Position numbers and translations under genes: made by a program. A DNA stretch of 64,000 bases from Chryseobacterium koreense CCUG 49689 (lineage in GTDB: Bacteria; Bacteroidota; Bacteroidia; Flavobacteriales; Weeksellaceae): the NCBI RefSeq assembly GCF_001045435.1, contig NZ_LFNG01000004.1, positions 1-64,000 on the forward strand. Reading direction: 5' to 3'. Below the pieces are notes generated by a model, which was not told the DNA's origin, did no database searches, and saw only the letters and a list, made by a program, of their open reading frames with translations. Numbering within the stretch: the stretch's first letter is position 1; each line of letters opens with the position of its first letter. This document shows, one piece after another, positions 55,179 to 63,111 of this stretch.

Positions 55179-55541
55179 ATGAAAAGCTTTTTCGTTTCCA
55201 TATTATCCGCAATTATTTTTTTGGCAAGCTTCCAAAACTCATTGCTTTTGGTGGATTATCAAATCAACAGGGATTTCTATGAGCTGCATTGCGTGAACAA
55301 GGACAAACCAGCCATGGCTTGTCACGGAAAATGTGAGATGAAAAAGGAAAGCGAAAAGGGAAACTCGCCTTTCAAAATCTTGAAAAGCAGTTTCGAGTTC
55401 AATATTCTGCCGACAAAACCTTTGGAAATAAATGTCGAGAAGTTGATGGTTTTTAAAGAATCGAAGCCGGCAAGCGATTATGCACCATTTTTCGTAAATA
55501 AAGGTTACTTAAACATTCTTCCACACCCGCCACAAATTTAA
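55179..55541 (+). CDS. Small Cys-rich protein of a putative copper cluster
   Basis: The 120-aa protein starts with a hydrophobic segment (FFVSILSAIIFLASFQNSLLLV) that is a signal peptide or anchor. It carries Cys38 (YELHCVN) and the cluster AMACHGKCEM (Cys48, His49, Cys52, Met54), a plausible copper site. It has no known family that I can name. It heads a cluster with a Met/His-rich lipoprotein and an OprC-like receptor, which suggests periplasmic metal handling. Confidence 0.65.
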   Translation: MKSFFVSILSAIIFLASFQNSLLLVDYQINRDFYELHCVNKDKPAMACHGKCEMKKESEKGNSPFKILKSSFEFNILPTKPLEINVEKLMVFKESKPASDYAPFFVNKGYLNILPHPPQI

Positions 55542-55650
55542 ATTTTTGATTTGCTCGTTCTGTTCAATTCCTTGGACGGAATGAATCCTGTTTTTTTAAA
55601 GACCAAAACTCTTTAAAGTACAACTCCTTTAATATCAAAAATTTAATAAA

Positions 55651-56508
55651 ATGAAATTTTCTATCAAAATATTCATTGCATTTTTTGCAATGGCACTTTT
55701 CCTTTCTTCATGCAGAACATCTTCTGACGATCCGGTAACTCCGCCCATAAACGAATTGGATGGTTTGACCAAGATCAAGGAAGTCTCCAACGATACCCAC
55801 ATCATTGAACTGTATTCCGCATCCGGAACCACGAAGCAAGGCTACAACAGCCTGAAATTCAGAATCAAAAACAAATCCACCAACCAATACGAGAAAAACG
55901 CCACCGCGACTTGGAATCCTTTGATGCACATGGCTACAATGAATCATTCCTGTCCAAAATCCGACATTAAAAAAGTTTCCGCAGACGGAACTTTGTATGA
56001 AGGTTATATCGTTTTTCAAATGGCGGAAAACGCAACGGAATACTGGGATCTAAAAATTGACTATACGATCAACGGGACCGCTTATTCCGTAACCACGGGA
56101 GTTTCGGTTCCGCAAGAATCAAAACAGACAGTGAGTTCATTTTTAGGATCAGACAACAGCAGGTATATTGTGGCTTACATAGAACCGAAAAGCCCGAAAG
56201 TCGCCGTAAACGATTGGACGGTAGGTGTTTGGAAAATGCAGGACATGATGAATTTTCCTGTGGCAGATGGACTTACTGTAAAACTTGACCCAAGAATGCC
56301 GGGAATGGGAAATCACTCCTCGCCAAATAATGTGGACGCCAGACAAACTCAAGCCGGTGGTCTTTATTACGGAAAACTTTCCCTGACCATGACAGGTTAC
56401 TGGAAACTGAATCTGCAACTGGCAAAAGCTGATGGTACTGTTTTGAAGGGAGAACCCGTCACAGACACCAATCCAGGAAGTACGCTTTACTTTGAAATCG
56501 AATTCTAA
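55651..56508 (+). CDS. Met/His-rich tandem-domain lipoprotein (YtkA/FixH-like)
   Basis: The 285-aa protein has a lipobox (FLSSC, Cys21). Two similar beta domains follow. The first (about 40-150) has LMHMATMNHSCP (Met92, His93, Met94, Met97, His99, Cys101). The second (about 165-285) has DPRMPGMGNHSSP (Met216, Met219, His222), followed by YYGKLSLTMTGYWKLNLQL. This matches YtkA/FixH-type domains, which occur in copper proteins. The Met/His spacing suggests Cu(I)/Cu(II) binding. It could hand copper to, or receive it from, the receptor encoded next. Confidence 0.7.
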   Translation: MKFSIKIFIAFFAMALFLSSCRTSSDDPVTPPINELDGLTKIKEVSNDTHIIELYSASGTTKQGYNSLKFRIKNKSTNQYEKNATATWNPLMHMATMNHSCPKSDIKKVSADGTLYEGYIVFQMAENATEYWDLKIDYTINGTAYSVTTGVSVPQESKQTVSSFLGSDNSRYIVAYIEPKSPKVAVNDWTVGVWKMQDMMNFPVADGLTVKLDPRMPGMGNHSSPNNVDARQTQAGGLYYGKLSLTMTGYWKLNLQLAKADGTVLKGEPVTDTNPGSTLYFEIEF

Positions 56509-56519
56509 AAATCTTGGTT

Positions 56520-56557
56520 AAAAGCAATGTCTGCAAATCAAGGTGGACATTGCTTTT
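56520..56557 (+). terminator. Hairpin between lipoprotein and receptor genes
   Basis: Arms aaagcaatgtc (56521-56531) and gacattgcttt (56546-56556), followed by a T-run, form a terminator-like hairpin. It lies 12 bp behind one gene and 18 bp before the next, so it would lower receptor expression relative to the lipoprotein unless read through. Confidence 0.75.
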
Positions 56558-56574
56558 TCATTTAATTCTGAAAA

Positions 56575-58566
56575 ATGAAAAAAACAATAACGCTGTTTTT
56601 TCTGATCGTTTCTTGCCTGAACTTTTCTGCTCAGGAAACACAGCACGATTCCCTGAAACACAGCAATATTCAAGAAGTAATCGTCATCGGCACCAAAGAG
56701 ATCTCACAGAAACAGGCAAAACCGCTAAGTTCCGTGGACGAATATCTGGAGCAATCTTCGAACATCAATATGCTGAAACGCGGAGCTTATGCATGGGAAC
56801 CGCTCATCAACAATATGCCGACCGAAAGAACTTTGGTCACCATTGACGGGATGCGGATTTTCGGGGCATGCACCGATAAAATGGACCCGGTGACTTCTTA
56901 CGTCGAAGTTTCCAATCTTTCCAAGGCGGAAATTTCCTCAGGACAAGGTGGTTCGGCTCACGGAAGCACGATCGGAGGTTCAATCGATTTGGTCCGTGAA
57001 AAAAGCAGTTGGGGTGACGAAAGATTTCGTGTGGGGATTAATTCCGGTTTTGAAAGCGTGAACAACCAAAAGATTTTTGGGGCAGCGACAAGTTATCGGA
57101 ATTCCAAATATTATGTGGATTTGAATTTCATGAACCGCGATGCAGATAATTATAAGGCAGGAAACGGTCAGGAAATTCCTTTTTCGCAATTTCGAAAATT
57201 TAATATTTCCGGAATTTCCGGAGTGAAAATCGGTGAAAACAAGCTGATTGAAGCTTCTGTGATTTATGATAAAGCCAGCGACGTGGGTTATCCCGCTTTG
57301 CCCATGGATGTTTCTCTGGCGGAAGCTCTCATCGGTTCATTGAAATTCCAGATCCTTACCAATGATTTTTTCATCAAAGACTGGGAAACAAAACTTTACT
57401 TTAACAATATCACGCACCGAATGGATGATACGAAACGTCCCGAAGTTCCAATCCACATGGATATGCCGGGTTGGAGCAAAACCGCCGGATATTATTCCAA
57501 ATTCAGAAGTGATTTTGAAAGACACCATCTGAGTTTGAACCTGAACGGATATTACAACCAATCCATTGCAGAAATGACGATGTATCCCACAAATCCCGCT
57601 GAATCCCCCATGTTCATGTACACGTGGCCCGATGTGAAAACGCTTTATCAGGGAATTTTCTTCGAAGACCATTTTCAAATGGATGATTTCATGGAGATGA
57701 AGTTTACGGCATCTGCAGGATATCATTCCAACAGAATTGACAATGAGTTTGCGCTGAACAGCATGCGGATATTTTATCCCGATATGGACCAGCAAAAAAG
57801 CAGGGTGCTGAAAAATTTTTCCGCCAATTTCAGCAGAAATCAATTTGGATTTGAATATGGAATCGGGGTGGGTTACGGAGACAGAGCGCCTTCTGTATCT
57901 GAAGGTTACGGATTTTATTTGTTCAACAGTTTTGAAAACTATGACTACATCGGTAATCCATGTCTGAAAAATGAAAACTCATTGGAAGGAAACGCATATA
58001 TCAGTTTAAAGAAAACCGATTTTTTTGCGAAAATATCTTCCTCCTATTTCCATATTTCGAATTATATCGTGGGAAAAATTCACCCGGATTTTATCCCGAT
58101 GACCATTGGCGCAAAAGGGGTGAAAGTTTATTCCGCACTAGATTATGCCACGATTTTTAATGTGAGTCTGGATGCAGAAATTAGGATTTTGCCGGAATTG
58201 AAATGGAATTCCCAGGTTGTTTACAGCCGCGGAAGGGATTTTGAAGAAGTGAATCTTCCATTTATCAGTCCGTTTTCTTATTTCTCGAAACTTCGTTTTG
58301 AAAAAAGCAGGTTCAATGCGGAAGTTTCCGTGAAAGGTAATTTAAAGCATAGCGATTACAGTGAGGTTTATGGGGAAAAACCTGTAGCGGATTTCATTCT
58401 GTTCAATGCTAATTTGGGATATCGGTTTGATTTTGGACGCAGCAAAATTTTTACGAAAGTGGGTGCTGAAAATCTGCTGAACCGGAACTACACCACTTAT
58501 GCCGACTGGAACAATATTCCACGACCAGGAAGGAATTTCTTCGTGAATGTGAATTATAGTTTTTAA
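56575..58566 (+). CDS. TonB-dependent receptor, OprC/NosA-like copper receptor
   Basis: The 663-aa protein has a signal peptide (FFLIVSCLNFSAQ), a plug domain (about 25-140) and a barrel ending in a terminal Phe (FFVNVNYSF). The plug contains GACTDKMDP: Cys99 and Met103, the CxxxM half of the copper site described for Pseudomonas OprC. The barrel has THRMDD: His281 and Met283, the HxM half. Together they support uptake of copper ions across the outer membrane with TonB. No carboxypeptidase-like N-terminal extension is present. Haem or siderophore transport is less likely given these motifs. Confidence 0.88.
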   Translation: MKKTITLFFLIVSCLNFSAQETQHDSLKHSNIQEVIVIGTKEISQKQAKPLSSVDEYLEQSSNINMLKRGAYAWEPLINNMPTERTLVTIDGMRIFGACTDKMDPVTSYVEVSNLSKAEISSGQGGSAHGSTIGGSIDLVREKSSWGDERFRVGINSGFESVNNQKIFGAATSYRNSKYYVDLNFMNRDADNYKAGNGQEIPFSQFRKFNISGISGVKIGENKLIEASVIYDKASDVGYPALPMDVSLAEALIGSLKFQILTNDFFIKDWETKLYFNNITHRMDDTKRPEVPIHMDMPGWSKTAGYYSKFRSDFERHHLSLNLNGYYNQSIAEMTMYPTNPAESPMFMYTWPDVKTLYQGIFFEDHFQMDDFMEMKFTASAGYHSNRIDNEFALNSMRIFYPDMDQQKSRVLKNFSANFSRNQFGFEYGIGVGYGDRAPSVSEGYGFYLFNSFENYDYIGNPCLKNENSLEGNAYISLKKTDFFAKISSSYFHISNYIVGKIHPDFIPMTIGAKGVKVYSALDYATIFNVSLDAEIRILPELKWNSQVVYSRGRDFEEVNLPFISPFSYFSKLRFEKSRFNAEVSVKGNLKHSDYSEVYGEKPVADFILFNANLGYRFDFGRSKIFTKVGAENLLNRNYTTYADWNNIPRPGRNFFVNVNYSF

Positions 58567-59254: not shown

Positions 59255-60046
59255 ATGGAAATCATAGGTTATCTTTCCGCAATCATCATCGGTCTCGTTA
59301 TGGGACTTATCGGCGGTGGCGGAAGTATTTTAAGCGTTCCTATTTTCGTGTATGTTTTTGGATTTGATGCGGTTACGGCAACCGCACTTTCGCTTTTTGT
59401 GGTGGGAGTTACCAGTATGGTGGGAAGTGTGGGTTTCATCAGGCAGCAATTGGTGGATTTCAGAACGGCGTTTATTTTCGGGATTCCGTCGATTTTGGGA
59501 GTGCTTTTTTCCAGGCGGTTGGTCTTGCCGCATTTGCCGCATTATATCATTCACCGATGGGGAATTACGCTGACCAAAGACATGTTCCTGCTGCTTTTGT
59601 TTTCCATTTTGATGCTGATTGCCTCTTTCAGAATGATTCGCAAAATTGAGCGGCCAAAAGTCGGGAAAGATGATGACATCAATTACACGATTCTCATCTC
59701 ACAAGGACTTTTGGTAGGAATCGTCACCGGATTGATCGGAGCAGGAGGTGGATTTTTAATTGTCCCAGCTTTGGTGATGCTGCTTGGTTTGGAGATGAAA
59801 AAAGCTGTTGCCACCTCGCTTTTCATTATCGCAATGAATTCTTCGCTGGGTTTTTTGAGCACAATGGGAATGGTGAAGCAGGATTGGAATTTTCTACTGA
59901 TTTTTAGTGGATTAGCCATAGTGGGAATATTTGTCGGGATCGCCATTTCAAAACGGATGGATGGAACAAAGCTGAAACCCCTTTTCGGATGGATTGTCCT
60001 GGGAATGGGAATCTTCATTATCATTAAAGAAATATTTCTTCAATAA
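59255..60046 (+). CDS. TauE/SafE-type sulfur-compound exporter
   Basis: The 263-aa membrane protein has about seven or eight helices in two halves, each with a Gly-rich GLIGGGGSI-like start (LVMGLIGGGGSILSVPIF and GLIGAGGGFLIVPALVML). This is the TauE/SafE pattern. Members export sulfite, sulfoacetate or similar ions. Here the neighbours (persulfide dioxygenase, rhodaneses) point to sulfite or thiosulfate export. Confidence 0.88.
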   Translation: MEIIGYLSAIIIGLVMGLIGGGGSILSVPIFVYVFGFDAVTATALSLFVVGVTSMVGSVGFIRQQLVDFRTAFIFGIPSILGVLFSRRLVLPHLPHYIIHRWGITLTKDMFLLLLFSILMLIASFRMIRKIERPKVGKDDDINYTILISQGLLVGIVTGLIGAGGGFLIVPALVMLLGLEMKKAVATSLFIIAMNSSLGFLSTMGMVKQDWNFLLIFSGLAIVGIFVGIAISKRMDGTKLKPLFGWIVLGMGIFIIIKEIFLQ

Positions 60047-60058
60047 AAATTATTAAAT

Positions 60059-60415
60059 ATGAAAAAGCTGACATTGCTTTTAGCCGCTTTATTTTTTCTG
60101 AATGCCTGTAAAAAAGAGAGTGAAACGAATTCAATTTCCGACCCTAATTCCAAAGAAGTGAGTTTGGTACAGGAAGTCACCAAACTGAAAAATGATAAAG
60201 GTGAGGAGGTTTCGGTCACTTATTTTGCGGAAGGCGGCGTGGTAGCTGTAAAAATTCAAAAAACAGGCGACAAGGAACAGAAACTTTCTGCCAAAACGAC
60301 CAATGCGAAAGGAAATCCAATCTTCACCAATGAAGAGGTGATGTGGGAAATGACGCAGGACGGAAAAGCGGGAAAACTGACCGACAAAGCAGGGAATTCC
60401 TCAGAATACAAATAA
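60059..60415 (+). CDS. Small lipoprotein
   Basis: The 118-aa protein has a lipobox (FLNAC, Cys16) followed by a Lys/Glu/Thr-rich beta-type domain (VTYFAEGGVVAVKIQKTGDKEQKLSA). No family recognised. It starts 12 bp behind the exporter gene, so it is in the same transcript. Confidence 0.65.
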   Translation: MKKLTLLLAALFFLNACKKESETNSISDPNSKEVSLVQEVTKLKNDKGEEVSVTYFAEGGVVAVKIQKTGDKEQKLSAKTTNAKGNPIFTNEEVMWEMTQDGKAGKLTDKAGNSSEYK

Positions 60416-60515
60416 ATCGTTTTTAAAACCTATGCCATTAATTGACTTTTTGGCTTCATATTCAGTTTTGGTATGCTTAATGCCAAAATTTATAATATTC
60501 TAAAACCTTATCAAA

Positions 60516-61919
60516 ATGAAAATCGAACAAATATATACCGGCTGTCTCGCTCAGGGAGCATATTATGTAGTTTCAGAAAACGAGGCGTTCATCATCGATC
60601 CATTGCGTGAAACCCAACCCTATCTTGATCGGCTTGCCAAAGACGGCGTGAAATTGAAATATATCTTCGAAACCCATTTTCATGCGGATTTTGTTTCCGG
60701 ACACGTGGATTTGTCAAAGAAAACCGGCGCTCCGATTGTGTACGGACCAACCGCGAATCCGGCGTTTGAAGCCATGATTGCAGAAGACAACCAAATCTTC
60801 GAAATCGGAAAAATTAAGCTAAAGGTTTTGCATACTCCTGGACATACCATGGAAAGTTCCACTTATCTCTTAATTGATGAAAATGGAAAAGAAACTGCGA
60901 TTTTTAGTGGTGACACTTTGTTTTTGGGCGATGTCGGAAGACCGGATCTGGCTCAGAAGGCAACCAATATGACCTCCGAGCAACTTGCGGGAATTTTATA
61001 CGAAAGCCTTCAGAACAAAATCATGCCGCTTTCCGATGAAATCATGGTGTATCCGGCACATGGAGCGGGTTCCGCCTGTGGAAAGAATATGCAGAAGGAA
61101 ACCATGGATACTTTGGGAAACCAGAAAAAAACCAATTATGCATTGAACCAACCGGACAAAGAATCCTTTGTAAGAGAGGTTTTGGATGGACTTGCCGCAC
61201 CGATGGAATATTTCGGGATGAACGTGGCGATGAACAAAGGCGGTTACGAAAGTTTTGAAAACGTGCTGAAAAAAGGGAGCCAGCCCATTTCCCCGGATGA
61301 TTTTGAAAACGTGGCAGAACAAAGCGGTGCGCTGATTTTAGATACCAGAAATGCCGCAGATTTTTACCGGGGATATATTCCAAACTCGATCAATATTGGG
61401 TTGAAGGGGGATTTTGCACCTTGGGTGGGCGCAATGATTGTGGACGTGAAACACCCTATAATTCTGGTTACAGATTTGGGAACCGAGCAAGAGGCCATCA
61501 CACGATTGGCGAGAGTTGGTTTTGATAATGTGGTGGGCTATTTAGACGGCGGTTTTGAATCCTGGAAAAACTCGGGCAAAGAAATCGATACGGTGAACAG
61601 GATTCCTGCAGATGAATTTGCAAAATCATTTAATGAAAATACCAAAGTCATCGACGTGAGAAAAGAATCCGAATTTGCTGCCGAACATGTGAATAATGCG
61701 TCTTTCAACACACTCTCCGAAATCAACAACTGGGCGAAAAGTTTGGATAAAAAAGAACATTTCTACATCCATTGTGCAGGAGGGTACAGAAGTATGATTG
61801 CGGCAAGTATCTTGAATTCGAGAGGAATAAGAAATTTTTCCGAGATTGAAGGTGGTTTCAAAAAAATTAAGGAAACCGCGGTTCCGAGAACTAATTTTGT
61901 CTGTCAAAGTAAATCCTAA
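60516..61919 (+). CDS. Persulfide dioxygenase-rhodanese fusion (CstB-like)
   Basis: The 467-aa protein has a metallo-beta-lactamase domain (about 1-235) with THFHADFVSGH (His54, His56, Asp58, His63), HTPGH (His110), GDTL (Asp133) and PAHG (His182). A first rhodanese domain (about 260-355) has no catalytic Cys (LVTDLGTEQEA). A second (about 365-455) has Cys420 (HCAGGYRS). This order and pattern resemble Staphylococcus CstB, which oxidises persulfides to sulfite and thiosulfate. A glyoxalase II role is unlikely given the rhodanese domains. Confidence 0.92.
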   Translation: MKIEQIYTGCLAQGAYYVVSENEAFIIDPLRETQPYLDRLAKDGVKLKYIFETHFHADFVSGHVDLSKKTGAPIVYGPTANPAFEAMIAEDNQIFEIGKIKLKVLHTPGHTMESSTYLLIDENGKETAIFSGDTLFLGDVGRPDLAQKATNMTSEQLAGILYESLQNKIMPLSDEIMVYPAHGAGSACGKNMQKETMDTLGNQKKTNYALNQPDKESFVREVLDGLAAPMEYFGMNVAMNKGGYESFENVLKKGSQPISPDDFENVAEQSGALILDTRNAADFYRGYIPNSINIGLKGDFAPWVGAMIVDVKHPIILVTDLGTEQEAITRLARVGFDNVVGYLDGGFESWKNSGKEIDTVNRIPADEFAKSFNENTKVIDVRKESEFAAEHVNNASFNTLSEINNWAKSLDKKEHFYIHCAGGYRSMIAASILNSRGIRNFSEIEGGFKKIKETAVPRTNFVCQSKS

Positions 61920-61924
61920 AAAAA

Positions 61925-62296
61925 ATGAAAATGAAATTCCTAATATGTATCATGATTGCTGGATTTGTGGCCATTTCCTGTAAAACTGCCGTGAATACCG
62001 CAGAAACACCAAGACCAAACATGGTGGAACTGGTCAATAATCCTGAAACCACTTTGGTTGATGTGAGAATACCATCAGAATTTGAAGAGAAAACTGCCAA
62101 AAATGCAGTGAATATTCCATTGGCAGAAATAGAAAACAACCTGGATTTTTTCAGGAAACAAAAACAGGTCGTATTGTTTTGCAATCGCGGAAAGCAGGCA
62201 CAATCCGCTTTGGATATTTTAAAGAAAAATGGAATTGAAAACGTGGTTTCTGCGAAGACTTTGGATAATGTTTCCGCCATTCAAAATAGTAAATAA
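61925..62296 (+). CDS. Rhodanese-domain lipoprotein
   Basis: The 123-aa protein has a lipobox (AISC, Cys19) and a rhodanese domain with VDVRIPSEFEEK and active Cys86 (LFCNRGKQAQ). It would carry sulfane sulfur on the periplasmic side. It begins 5 bp behind the CstB-like gene; its last base is shared with the next ATG. Confidence 0.88.
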   Translation: MKMKFLICIMIAGFVAISCKTAVNTAETPRPNMVELVNNPETTLVDVRIPSEFEEKTAKNAVNIPLAEIENNLDFFRKQKQVVLFCNRGKQAQSALDILKKNGIENVVSAKTLDNVSAIQNSK

Positions 62297-62592
62297 TGAA
62301 TATTCTAGAAAACATCACCTTCAGTACTGAAAAACCAAATGTGCTCTACCTAAGAAAAAACGAAAAGGTGAAATATTTCGCCATTGCATTGGGAAAAAAT
62401 GCAGTGTTGAAAAAACATACCGCACCGGTTGTTTCCACCTTAGTCGTTTTGAAGGGCGAAATCAACTTTATCCTTGACGGAAAAGTTCATCACCTGAAAC
62501 CATTTGATGTTTTTGAAATTCCTTTGGACATTGAGCATGAAGTACACGGACTTTTTGACGAGAATCTTTTTACGGTAAATCAAGAATTTTAA
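62296..62592 (+). CDS. Cupin-domain protein
   Basis: The 98-aa protein is a single small cupin barrel (VVSTLVVLKGEINFILDGKVHHLKPFDVFEIPLDIEHEVHG). The two His of HEVHG and those in HH could bind a metal, but the set is less complete than in cysteine dioxygenase. Its role may be sensing or thiol oxidation. It overlaps the rhodanese lipoprotein by one base. Confidence 0.75.
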   Translation: MNILENITFSTEKPNVLYLRKNEKVKYFAIALGKNAVLKKHTAPVVSTLVVLKGEINFILDGKVHHLKPFDVFEIPLDIEHEVHGLFDENLFTVNQEF

Positions 62593-62594
62593 TA

Positions 62595-62807
62595 ATGAAA
62601 AATTTGATCTTAAAATATAAACTTGGAATCATTGGTATTTTTGTCGGTGGAGTTTTGGGGTACGCATATTACCATTTTATCGGTTGCAACTCCGGAAGCT
62701 GCGCGATCACTTCAAAACCGGTTAACTCCTCTGTTTATGGAATGTTGATGGGATTTCTAATGTTTTCTATGTTTGACAAATCCTCAAAATCAAAGAAAGA
62801 TGTTTGA
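62595..62807 (+). CDS. DUF6132-type small membrane protein with GCxSGxC motif
   Basis: The 70-aa protein has two membrane segments (IIGIFVGGVLGYAYYHF and SVYGMLMGFLMFSMF) around GCNSGSCAI. The two Cys four residues apart could pass sulfane sulfur or bind metal. It overlaps the following rhodanese gene by 8 bp. Confidence 0.7.
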   Translation: MKNLILKYKLGIIGIFVGGVLGYAYYHFIGCNSGSCAITSKPVNSSVYGMLMGFLMFSMFDKSSKSKKDV

Positions 62808-63111
62808 TTTCATCAAAAAACTATTTACCGGAAACACCGTTGATTATAAAGAGTTGGTGAAAAACGGAGCGCAAATCATCGATGTGCGTACCGAGGTGGA
62901 ATTTGCAAACGGACATATTAAAAATGCAAAGAATATCCCGCTGCAAAAATTAGCTGCAGAAATGAAAAAATTAGATCTGAAGAAACCGATCATCACCTGC
63001 TGTGCAAGTGGAATGAGAAGTGCTTCAGCAAAAGGAATTCTGAAACAAAACGGTTTCGAGGCATATAACGGAGGTGGCTGGAATACCCTTCAAAATAAAT
63101 TGAACAGATGA
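62800..63111 (+). CDS. Cytosolic rhodanese
   Basis: The 103-aa protein (MFDFIKKLF start) is a single rhodanese with VDYKELVKNGAQIIDVRTEVEF and the active loop CCASGMRS (Cys67/Cys68). It has no signal. The ATG lies inside the end of the preceding gene, and its stop overlaps the next ATG by 4 bp, so translation is coupled both ways. It resembles the rhodanese half of E. coli YgaP. Confidence 0.9.
   Translation: MFDFIKKLFTGNTVDYKELVKNGAQIIDVRTEVEFANGHIKNAKNIPLQKLAAEMKKLDLKKPIITCCASGMRSASAKGILKQNGFEAYNGGGWNTLQNKLNR

Follow-up and report, generated by a model that had tools for sequence, protein, structure and literature searches.

The DNA analysed here, referred to as the window, is the first 64,000 nucleotides of contig NZ_LFNG01000004.1 (assembly GCF_001045435.1) from Chryseobacterium koreense CCUG 49689, a member of the Bacteroidota. 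Three consecutive open reading frames (ORFs) on its plus strand fill positions 55179-58566, exactly the span in which a sequence-only reading had seen a candidate copper-acquisition cluster made of a CHGKC protein, a tandem YtkA-like lipoprotein and an OprC-like receptor; the motifs AMACHGKCEM, MHMATMNHSCP and MPGMGNH named in that reading are all present. The genes, and the codons on which the argument turns, are the following.

55179..55541, plus strand: leader gene (the CHGKC protein), 120 amino acids (aa), with a signal-peptide-like start, C48-HGK-C52 and a C-terminal HPPQI; predicted nascent-chain copper sensor
55320..55334, plus strand: CHGKC codons (C48 to C52) of the leader, position counted from the ORF; predicted copper-sensing site
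55527..55532, plus strand: P117-P118 codons of the leader; predicted arrest point
55651..56508, plus strand: lipoprotein gene, 285 aa, with Cys21, an acidic start (CRTSSDDP) and two YtkA-like domains bearing Met/His sites; predicted to capture copper at the surface as the receptor's partner
56575..58566, plus strand: OprC-like TonB-dependent receptor gene, 663 aa, with C99, M103, H281 and M283

Gaps of 109 bases (leader to lipoprotein) and 66 bases (lipoprotein to receptor) separate the genes. Ligands, pairing, gene order, motifs, spacing and RNA folding, all read from the sequence, make it reasonably likely that the set is a copper-import operon of Bacteroidota with a copper switch of its own; its copper specificity, surface exposure, arrest, sign of response and transport are predictions. 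Copper uptake by Gram-negative bacteria is little known, and almost nothing was found described for Bacteroidota. If this reading is true, the set would supply a copper version of the receptor-lipoprotein pair in a phylum rich in such importers, a metal switch read by the ribosome whose exact parts can be named (CxGKC, Pro-Pro and the helix past the stop codon), and, in the CxGKC leader, a sequence marker for other copper genes of the phylum.

Two separate samples underlie the comparisons. The locus set consists of 81 loci with receptor relatives, among which 80 receptors were counted, the window included and L010 excluded for its incomplete receptor ORF; L069 begins within the receptor gene and comes without a lipoprotein, and L024, whose receptor ORF has just 437 aa, was kept unchanged. 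The second sample comprises 118 Bacteroidota genomes, scanned for receptor places at E ≤ 1e-100 and lipoprotein places at E ≤ 1e-10, with up to 10 and 20 candidates per genome scored, respectively. The closest named locus, L002 of Chryseobacterium sp. R2A-55, has a receptor 90% identical to that of the window, and the nonsynonymous (dN) and synonymous (dS) divergences from it are 0.10 and 0.82 for the leader, 0.03 and 0.82 for the lipoprotein, and 0.05 and 0.72 for the receptor. Judged from these sequence comparisons, all three genes are under purifying selection.

The receptor very probably imports copper, as its OprC-type ligands and fold suggest, copper specificity and transport both being predicted. 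A phmmer search of the PDB at E ≤ 0.001 returned OprC chains only (6 distinct sequences, best E 1.2e-13), and its alignment sets C99, M103, H281 and M283 opposite the OprC copper ligands C143, M147, H323 and M325 (PMC8610252; statements drawn from this and the other papers cited below refer to the parts of those texts that were available). The residue numbering of the sequence-only reading, Cys99-x3-Met103 and His281-x-Met283, is correct; its question whether the four residues meet was examined by homology only, which places all four opposite OprC ligands. In two of the OprC chains, 6z8r and 6z8s, Met103 and Met283 face His, and mutants M147H and M325H are described in PMC8610252. By alignment, H281 and M283 occur in every one of the 80 receptors and C99 and M103 in 79, the remaining one being a receptor whose contig begins within the gene. 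Among 23 plug-domain places in the window's own genome, each cut about 1.5 kb either side to give about 620-760 residues, only this receptor has C...M or H.M. An AlphaFold2 model (mean pLDDT 81.7, with residues 101-110 at 59) was compared with known structures using VIA; the 13 top rows were all OprC (Z 37.6 to 36.2), the best match spanning 597 residues and identity to OprC over the structural alignment being 18-19%, followed by ZnuD at Z 35.8 and then heme and B12 receptors. Complexes of BtuB with its lipoprotein (8bmx, 8blw and 8p98) were also among the structural matches. The receptor contains 20 methionines, nine of which, beyond M103 and M283, are invariant in alignment A3; judged by sequence only, these are candidates for a methionine track between the cell surface and the copper site.

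The gene-neighbourhood search that the sequence-only reading had called for finds the lipoprotein beside the receptor in 80 of the 81 loci, the exception (L069) being cut by a contig start. The 118 genomes agree: they contain 11 receptor places (in 10 genomes) and 16 lipoprotein places (in 13 genomes), and comparison of coordinates puts a lipoprotein next to 11 of 11 receptors. Its tandem YtkA-like character is borne out by two routes, in that domain 2 (residues 172-255) passes the Pfam YtkA-like model PF13115 at 29 bits against a cut-off of 25.9, and domain 1, itself under the Pfam cut-off for YtkA-like, matches domain 2 by hhalign (probability 84.6, P 6.8e-6), aligning MHM..M.HSCP of domain 1 with RMP.M.NHSSP of domain 2. 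All 78 readable lipoproteins keep M92, M94, H99, P102 and M124, and M216, M219, H222 and M247 are found in 80 of 80. The structural model (pLDDT 92.3) consists of two beta-sandwich, Ig-like domains, for which Foldseek returned generic Ig-like matches only and VIA a best Z of 9.2, with no SusD or BtuG entry among the matches listed; the modelled fold as such names no function. A rule for the lipid cysteine placed it in 70 of 80 lipoproteins, the other 10 being three contig-end cuts and seven missed by the rule, and all 70 carry at least two acidic residues past this cysteine, 66 of them as an adjacent acidic pair, with S-[T/S]-D-D-D as the typical sequence. Since this acidic stretch agrees with SDDDD and SDDFE, the signals for surface export in B. 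fragilis and F. johnsoniae (PMC5080379), the lipoprotein is predicted to be surface exposed, and it is likely to be a surface copper-binding partner of the receptor. By analogy, it would partner the receptor as BtuG partners BtuB.

The proposal of copper acquisition finds support for the receptor and lipoprotein in OprC-type ligands, fold and constant pairing. That the CHGKC protein, too, handles copper for the system is probably mistaken, its anatomy being that of a copper-sensing leader that regulates the operon in cis. A CxGKC profile finds this protein in 72 of the 81 loci; six of the nine loci without it are contig-end cuts (L006, L011, L012, L040, L066 and L069). The gene order is leader-lipoprotein-receptor in 64 loci and leader-receptor-lipoprotein in 7, the leader standing first in both, as it does in L010, with its truncated receptor ORF. 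Across the 27 sequences of alignment A1, C38, C48, G50, C52, P117 and P118 are invariant. Pro-Pro begins 3-11 residues from the C-terminus in 71 of 72 leaders (in the exception, L067, the frame continues past Pro-Pro), while a control of large ORFs from the same loci (at least 250 aa, distinct tails, either strand) has PP within the last 12 residues in only 2 of 434. The distance from CxGKC to Pro-Pro is 64-70 residues in 71 of 71 leaders with a late Pro-Pro, and the linker between them (residues 63-112) drifts: pairwise identity among the 27 sequences is 0.12 there, 0.51 around CxGKC and 0.40 in the tail. Leader lengths run from 120 to 155 aa and gaps to the next gene from 6 to 400 nt, counted from the first start codon. 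At E ≤ 0.01, none of the 27 is matched by a Pfam or NCBIfam model. The leader fits the rules set for CutF-like proteins in PMC9973294 (under 150 aa, an export signal, here judged by eye, PP at most 15 residues from the end, and a same-strand gene within 1000 nt) as well as their CxxxC version of the Cys metal motif.

The RNA that follows the leader appears to be structured, with these elements.

55542..55650, plus strand: leader-lipoprotein intergenic folded RNA, recognised by shuffle z-score, a terminator-like site and a counterpart in L002
55542-55550 with 55634-55642, plus strand: outer helix, beginning just past the leader stop and ending 8 bases before the lipoprotein ATG
55555-55567 with 55572-55584, plus strand: inner hairpin 1, scored terminator-like
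55594-55602 with 55610-55618, plus strand: inner hairpin 2, from folding
56520..56557, plus strand: terminator-like hairpin in the lipoprotein-receptor gap, from a consensus scan only

The 109-base gap folds at -24.5 kcal/mol, as against -11.9 ± 2.6 for shuffled sequences (z -4.8; 0 of 200 shuffles as good), and by eye its counterpart in L002 has an identical outer helix and retains both hairpins with changes. A folding survey covered 68 of the 72 leaders (intergenic stretches of 30-260 nt, starts shifted by a simple rule) and gave a median z of -2.29 after the leader, with 37 loci below -2, compared with -0.12 upstream of it, with 6 of 67 below. When the gaps of 24 Flavobacteriaceae were laid on the structure of L049, 53 cells showed two-sided changes as compared with 29.5 ± 4.5 in shuffles and 13-24 when the structure was slid; L049 is itself among the 24, so that the counts lean toward it, and the shuffles leave kinship in. 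An RNA model, R1, made 31 matches in 75 sources (E ≤ 0.1), 30 of them starting at or around a leader stop codon and the last being on the opposite strand in L044. Six loci outside the training set are among those matched (L035, L038, L062, L063, L074 and L076), some of them near relatives of its members; the window gap is not matched by R1. A hairpin after the leader stop is likely, and it may act as an attenuator, as a mask over the start site, or both. The gap that follows the lipoprotein gene holds a strong, 15-pair terminator-like hairpin (56520-56557), which could raise the level of lipoprotein above that of receptor.

Across the second sample, the CxGKC family occurs at 59 places in 45 of the 118 genomes. 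Tails were judged by eye at 56 of these places, all but three that belong to triads (the window, G068 and G025:C23). HPP, RPP, PPP or similar closes 54 of the tails, whereas the two leaders without a late PP (L157 and L161) have it about 20 residues before the end. The genes next to the 56 leaders are of several kinds. Twenty-six encode proteins of at least 600 aa, 25 of them in one similarity cluster, of which two members were scanned: L112 is a TonB-dependent receptor by Pfam and L138 matches the plug model just under cut-off. Fourteen make up an MbnP cluster (each of the two scanned matches PF20243), five are this lipoprotein, four are small beta-barrel-like proteins (two scanned), two are SCO1-like (one scanned), and the remaining five are single cases, AraC and DJ-1 types included. 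When the 26 long proteins are added to the receptor alignment, the four ligand positions read C, M, H and M in 19, and none of these 19 coincides with the 11 receptor places in the same genomes. Owing to these ligand-bearing receptors and MbnP beside leaders, there is strong and largely independent evidence, taken from gene neighbourhoods, that the leader family belongs to copper.

Seen from the receptor, the CxGKC leader is present at 8 of the 11 sampled receptor-lipoprotein pairs. At two more, in G092 and G108, another Cys/His-rich protein ending LLRPPRR or LLKPPRA lies 93 and 116 bases before the lipoprotein.

L165:831-1298, plus strand, and L166, minus strand: Cys/His-rich, signal-peptide-like substitute for the absent CxGKC leader, just before the lipoprotein gene

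In all, 10 of the 11 pairs have a leader that bears a metal motif and ends in Pro-Pro. Against three CxGKC leaders, the substitutes align loosely, with little in common beyond one Cys and the Pro-Pro. The replacement of the leader in two genomes suggests that the leader design arose or diverged more than once.

How such an operon would work can be laid out step by step. The surface lipoprotein would capture copper through its two Met/His sites and pass it to the OprC-like receptor, which would import it through the CxxxM-HxM site. The N-terminus of the leader would be exported during translation, so that CxGKC lies at or just past the membrane when Pro-Pro reaches the peptidyl-transferase centre. 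A chain of 64-70 residues is about what is needed to span the ribosomal tunnel and the translocon; given this spacing, CxGKC would sample the periplasm, as is held for CutF. In the absence of copper, the ribosome would pause at Pro-Pro and cover the RNA behind the leader, and the operon would stay open; with copper on CxGKC, the pause would be lost, the RNA would fold (or Rho would act), and expression would drop. With P117 in the P site, the size of the ribosome footprint would place the front edge near base 55542, the start of the outer helix, so that a paused ribosome would keep this helix open or protect the RNA from Rho. Standing first in either gene order, with a CxxxC, a Pro-Pro end kept at a fixed distance from it although the linker drifts, and RNA that folds past the stop codon, the leader is most likely a nascent-chain copper sensor like CutF and CruR, not a copper carrier, and there is a good probability that it acts in cis. 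That copper is sensed by arrest and lowers expression has, by analogy, about an even chance; the direction is proposed because the responses of CruR and oprC have that sign, oprC (PMC8610252) and the bfrG/crtA operon (PMC9426467) both being lowered by copper, and the opposite sign is possible. More broadly, there is about an even chance that Bacteroidota use nascent-chain copper sensors from a family peculiar to the phylum and without sequence kinship to DUF2946, in which an [H/R/T]-Pro-Pro(-Pro) end would arrest translation as CxGKC emerges into the periplasm and periplasmic copper would decide the expression of the import pair, of other receptors and of MbnP.

Several precedents frame this proposal. 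OprC of P. aeruginosa (PDB 6fok, 6z8q; PMC8610252) shares with the receptor the four copper ligands, the plug and barrel fold and the many methionines, but the receptor here has a lipoprotein partner and belongs to an operon of Bacteroidota. Such pairs of a surface lipoprotein and a TonB-dependent receptor are familiar from BtuB-BtuG and SusC-SusD of Bacteroidota, whereas the lipoprotein here has, in the model, two Ig-like domains with Met/His sites, and its predicted substrate is copper. The nearest parallel to the leader's position is CruR (DUF2946), from the Bordetella pertussis bfrG/crtA operon (PMC9426467, PMC12992588), likewise the first gene before a TonB-dependent copper transporter and likewise with an export signal, a Cys pair, a C-terminal Pro-Pro and near-constant spacing; its arrest was shown in vitro (PMC12992588). 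The leader here differs in having CxGKC instead of CxxC and HPP, RPP or PPP instead of RAPP, in the distance from the Cys motif to Pro-Pro (47-49 residues in DUF2946 sequences, 64-70 in the Bacteroidota leaders) and in showing no detectable homology. According to PMC12992588, some groups, Bacteroidota for example, showed no RAPP/RGPP leaders for copper-related genes, while those of TonB-related genes turned up in Gram-negative bacteria at large. CutF of Rhodobacter capsulatus and the CutF-like proteins have in common with the leader a CxxxC, a signal peptide, a C-terminal PP and, as is likely here, a stem-loop before the next gene; CutF, however, raises a copper oxidase (PMC9973294), and the predicted target here is an import pair. 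A survey in the same paper, of short proteins with an export signal and PP close to the C-terminus, counted 5,334 CutF-like proteins, Bacteroidota contributing 40% after normalisation and 19% otherwise, and the CxGKC family may well be among those already counted. Other Pro-ended candidate arrest peptides of Bacteroidota lie upstream of secretion genes (PMC10987492).

The same plan is met in another phylum. Six plasmid records hold a distant, beta-proteobacterial relative of the receptor, and in 5 of 5 stretches read (L172-L176; the sixth record, H2, a second C. metallidurans record, was not counted) a CGYC...RAPP protein lies directly upstream, annotated as DUF2946 in the one stretch with a gene table. 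On this sequence comparison, two phyla share the plan in which a leader with a Cys pair and a Pro-Pro end comes before an OprC-like receptor. A tblastn search of the plasmids with a Bacteroidota DUF2946 protein gave no match. The sequence-only reading had known of no described system of this composition. That holds for the triad and its lipoprotein, of which no account was found in the literature searched, most subscription papers lying outside its coverage; it does not hold for the parts, since PMC9426467 describes operons of a leader with a TonB-dependent transporter in Proteobacteria, the OprC type among them, CutF-like proteins have been counted in Bacteroidota (PMC9973294), and an OprC-like receptor of Bizionia argentinensis, the source of locus L016, has been noted (UniProt G2EC70; PMC11213822). 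The latter is of the same CxxxM-HxM type, the available part of that paper mentioning neither lipoprotein nor leader. The leader-plus-receptor principle is thus already known, and the triad and its details were not found described.

Three other explanations deserve to be weighed. All three proteins might be importer parts, the CHGKC protein being an exported periplasmic copper chaperone fed by the receptor or the lipoprotein. Its signal-peptide-like N-terminus, the conserved CxGKC, the purifying selection (dN 0.10, dS 0.82) and the linkage to copper genes would all suit such a role, but a chaperone does not account for roughly two fifths of the protein (residues 63-112) drifting at 12% identity while length stays near constant and the Pro-Pro end is kept, nor for a leader that precedes the pair whichever gene comes second and that stands before genes as unlike as MbnP, SCO1 and several receptors. 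This explanation is unlikely, and the leader as a plain copper carrier was rejected on its drifting linker, fixed length, Pro-Pro end and first position in either order. The receptor, for its part, could take up something else, such as chelated copper, heme or some other complex of a metal, its four residues binding no free copper: a heme receptor model scores 62 bits on it, TIGR01778 stays under cut-off, and CrtA imports chelated copper (PMC12914433). With the four OprC ligands kept in 79 of 80 receptors, and OprC outranking zinc, heme and B12 receptors structurally, though by a small gap to ZnuD (Z 37.6 vs 35.8), such a ligand is improbable.

It is very improbable that the operon serves copper defence instead, the receptor and lipoprotein sequestering copper at the surface and the leader inducing them at high copper, as in CutF-CutO. 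CutF does mediate a rise of CutO with copper, and many CutF-like proteins precede efflux genes (PMC9973294); here, in contrast, the receptor is OprC-like in site and fold, the known oprC (PMC8610252) and bfrG/crtA (PMC9426467) are lowered by copper, and the set contains no efflux-type gene, none having been recognised by eye in the surrounding ORF list either.

The preferred reading, an import operon with a leader that senses copper, has a number of observations standing against it. The receptor scores 91.2 bits on TIGR01778, under the equivalog cut-off of 472.45, and is for this reason called OprC-like and, by the NCBIfam sequence rule, not filed as an OprC ortholog. Three Prevotella-type loci (L070, L071 and L073) are truly without a leader though the pair is kept, and so is the receptor-lipoprotein pair of G002. 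The copper ligands are absent from seven of the 26 long proteins beside leaders (L112, L120, L122, L124, L127, L129 and L135), and one genome family, f15, supplies 8 of the 19 with ligands, the counts being of sequences, not events. The stretch after the operon is also folded (median z -1.65, 30 of 68 below -2), terminators being expected there, and RNAalifold found no consensus fold in alignment A4. Two ways of joining the leader to an established arrest system were tried and rejected: as a DUF2946/CruR member, with 0 of 27 sequences matching PF11162 and an hhalign probability of 0.2 against 7 DUF2946-type sequences, and by the arrest motif of RAPP/RGPP with a CxxC about 45 residues before it, as opposed to the HPP, RPP, PPP or similar ends and 64-70 residues of the leaders. 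The Pro-rich tail of CutF alone did not stall in a LepB assay, and copper raises expression through CutF (PMC9973294) but lowers it through CruR (PMC9426467), which makes the sign proposed here a guess.

Among the other genes beside CxGKC leaders, five of the ligand-free long proteins (L112, L124, L127, L129 and L135) share F/Y-N-H-N-A at an aligned place and are perhaps a second receptor type, for another copper form. The small beta-barrel-like proteins at L115, L139 and L145, which form one cluster, and at L142 are possibly copper proteins that have escaped recognition; L115 and L142 match Phenol_MetA_deg weakly. DUF2946 itself occurs in 4 of the 118 Bacteroidota genomes (E ≤ 0.001), one above cut-off and none at a leader place. 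The Bacteroidota proteins of DUF2946 type (L168-L171) have RGPP or RAPP ends, and in L169, L170 and L171 an exported-looking protein comes after the gene. In the window's genome, a search for MbnP gave no match, nor did the same search in control genomes; three COX1-family genes are present, whose proteins are possible users of imported copper. Downstream of the receptor, at 59255-63111 of the window, lie apparent sulfide/persulfide genes, named by eye from the ORF list: a TauE-like permease, a protein joining a beta-lactamase fold with rhodanese, more rhodanese-like proteins and a cupin.

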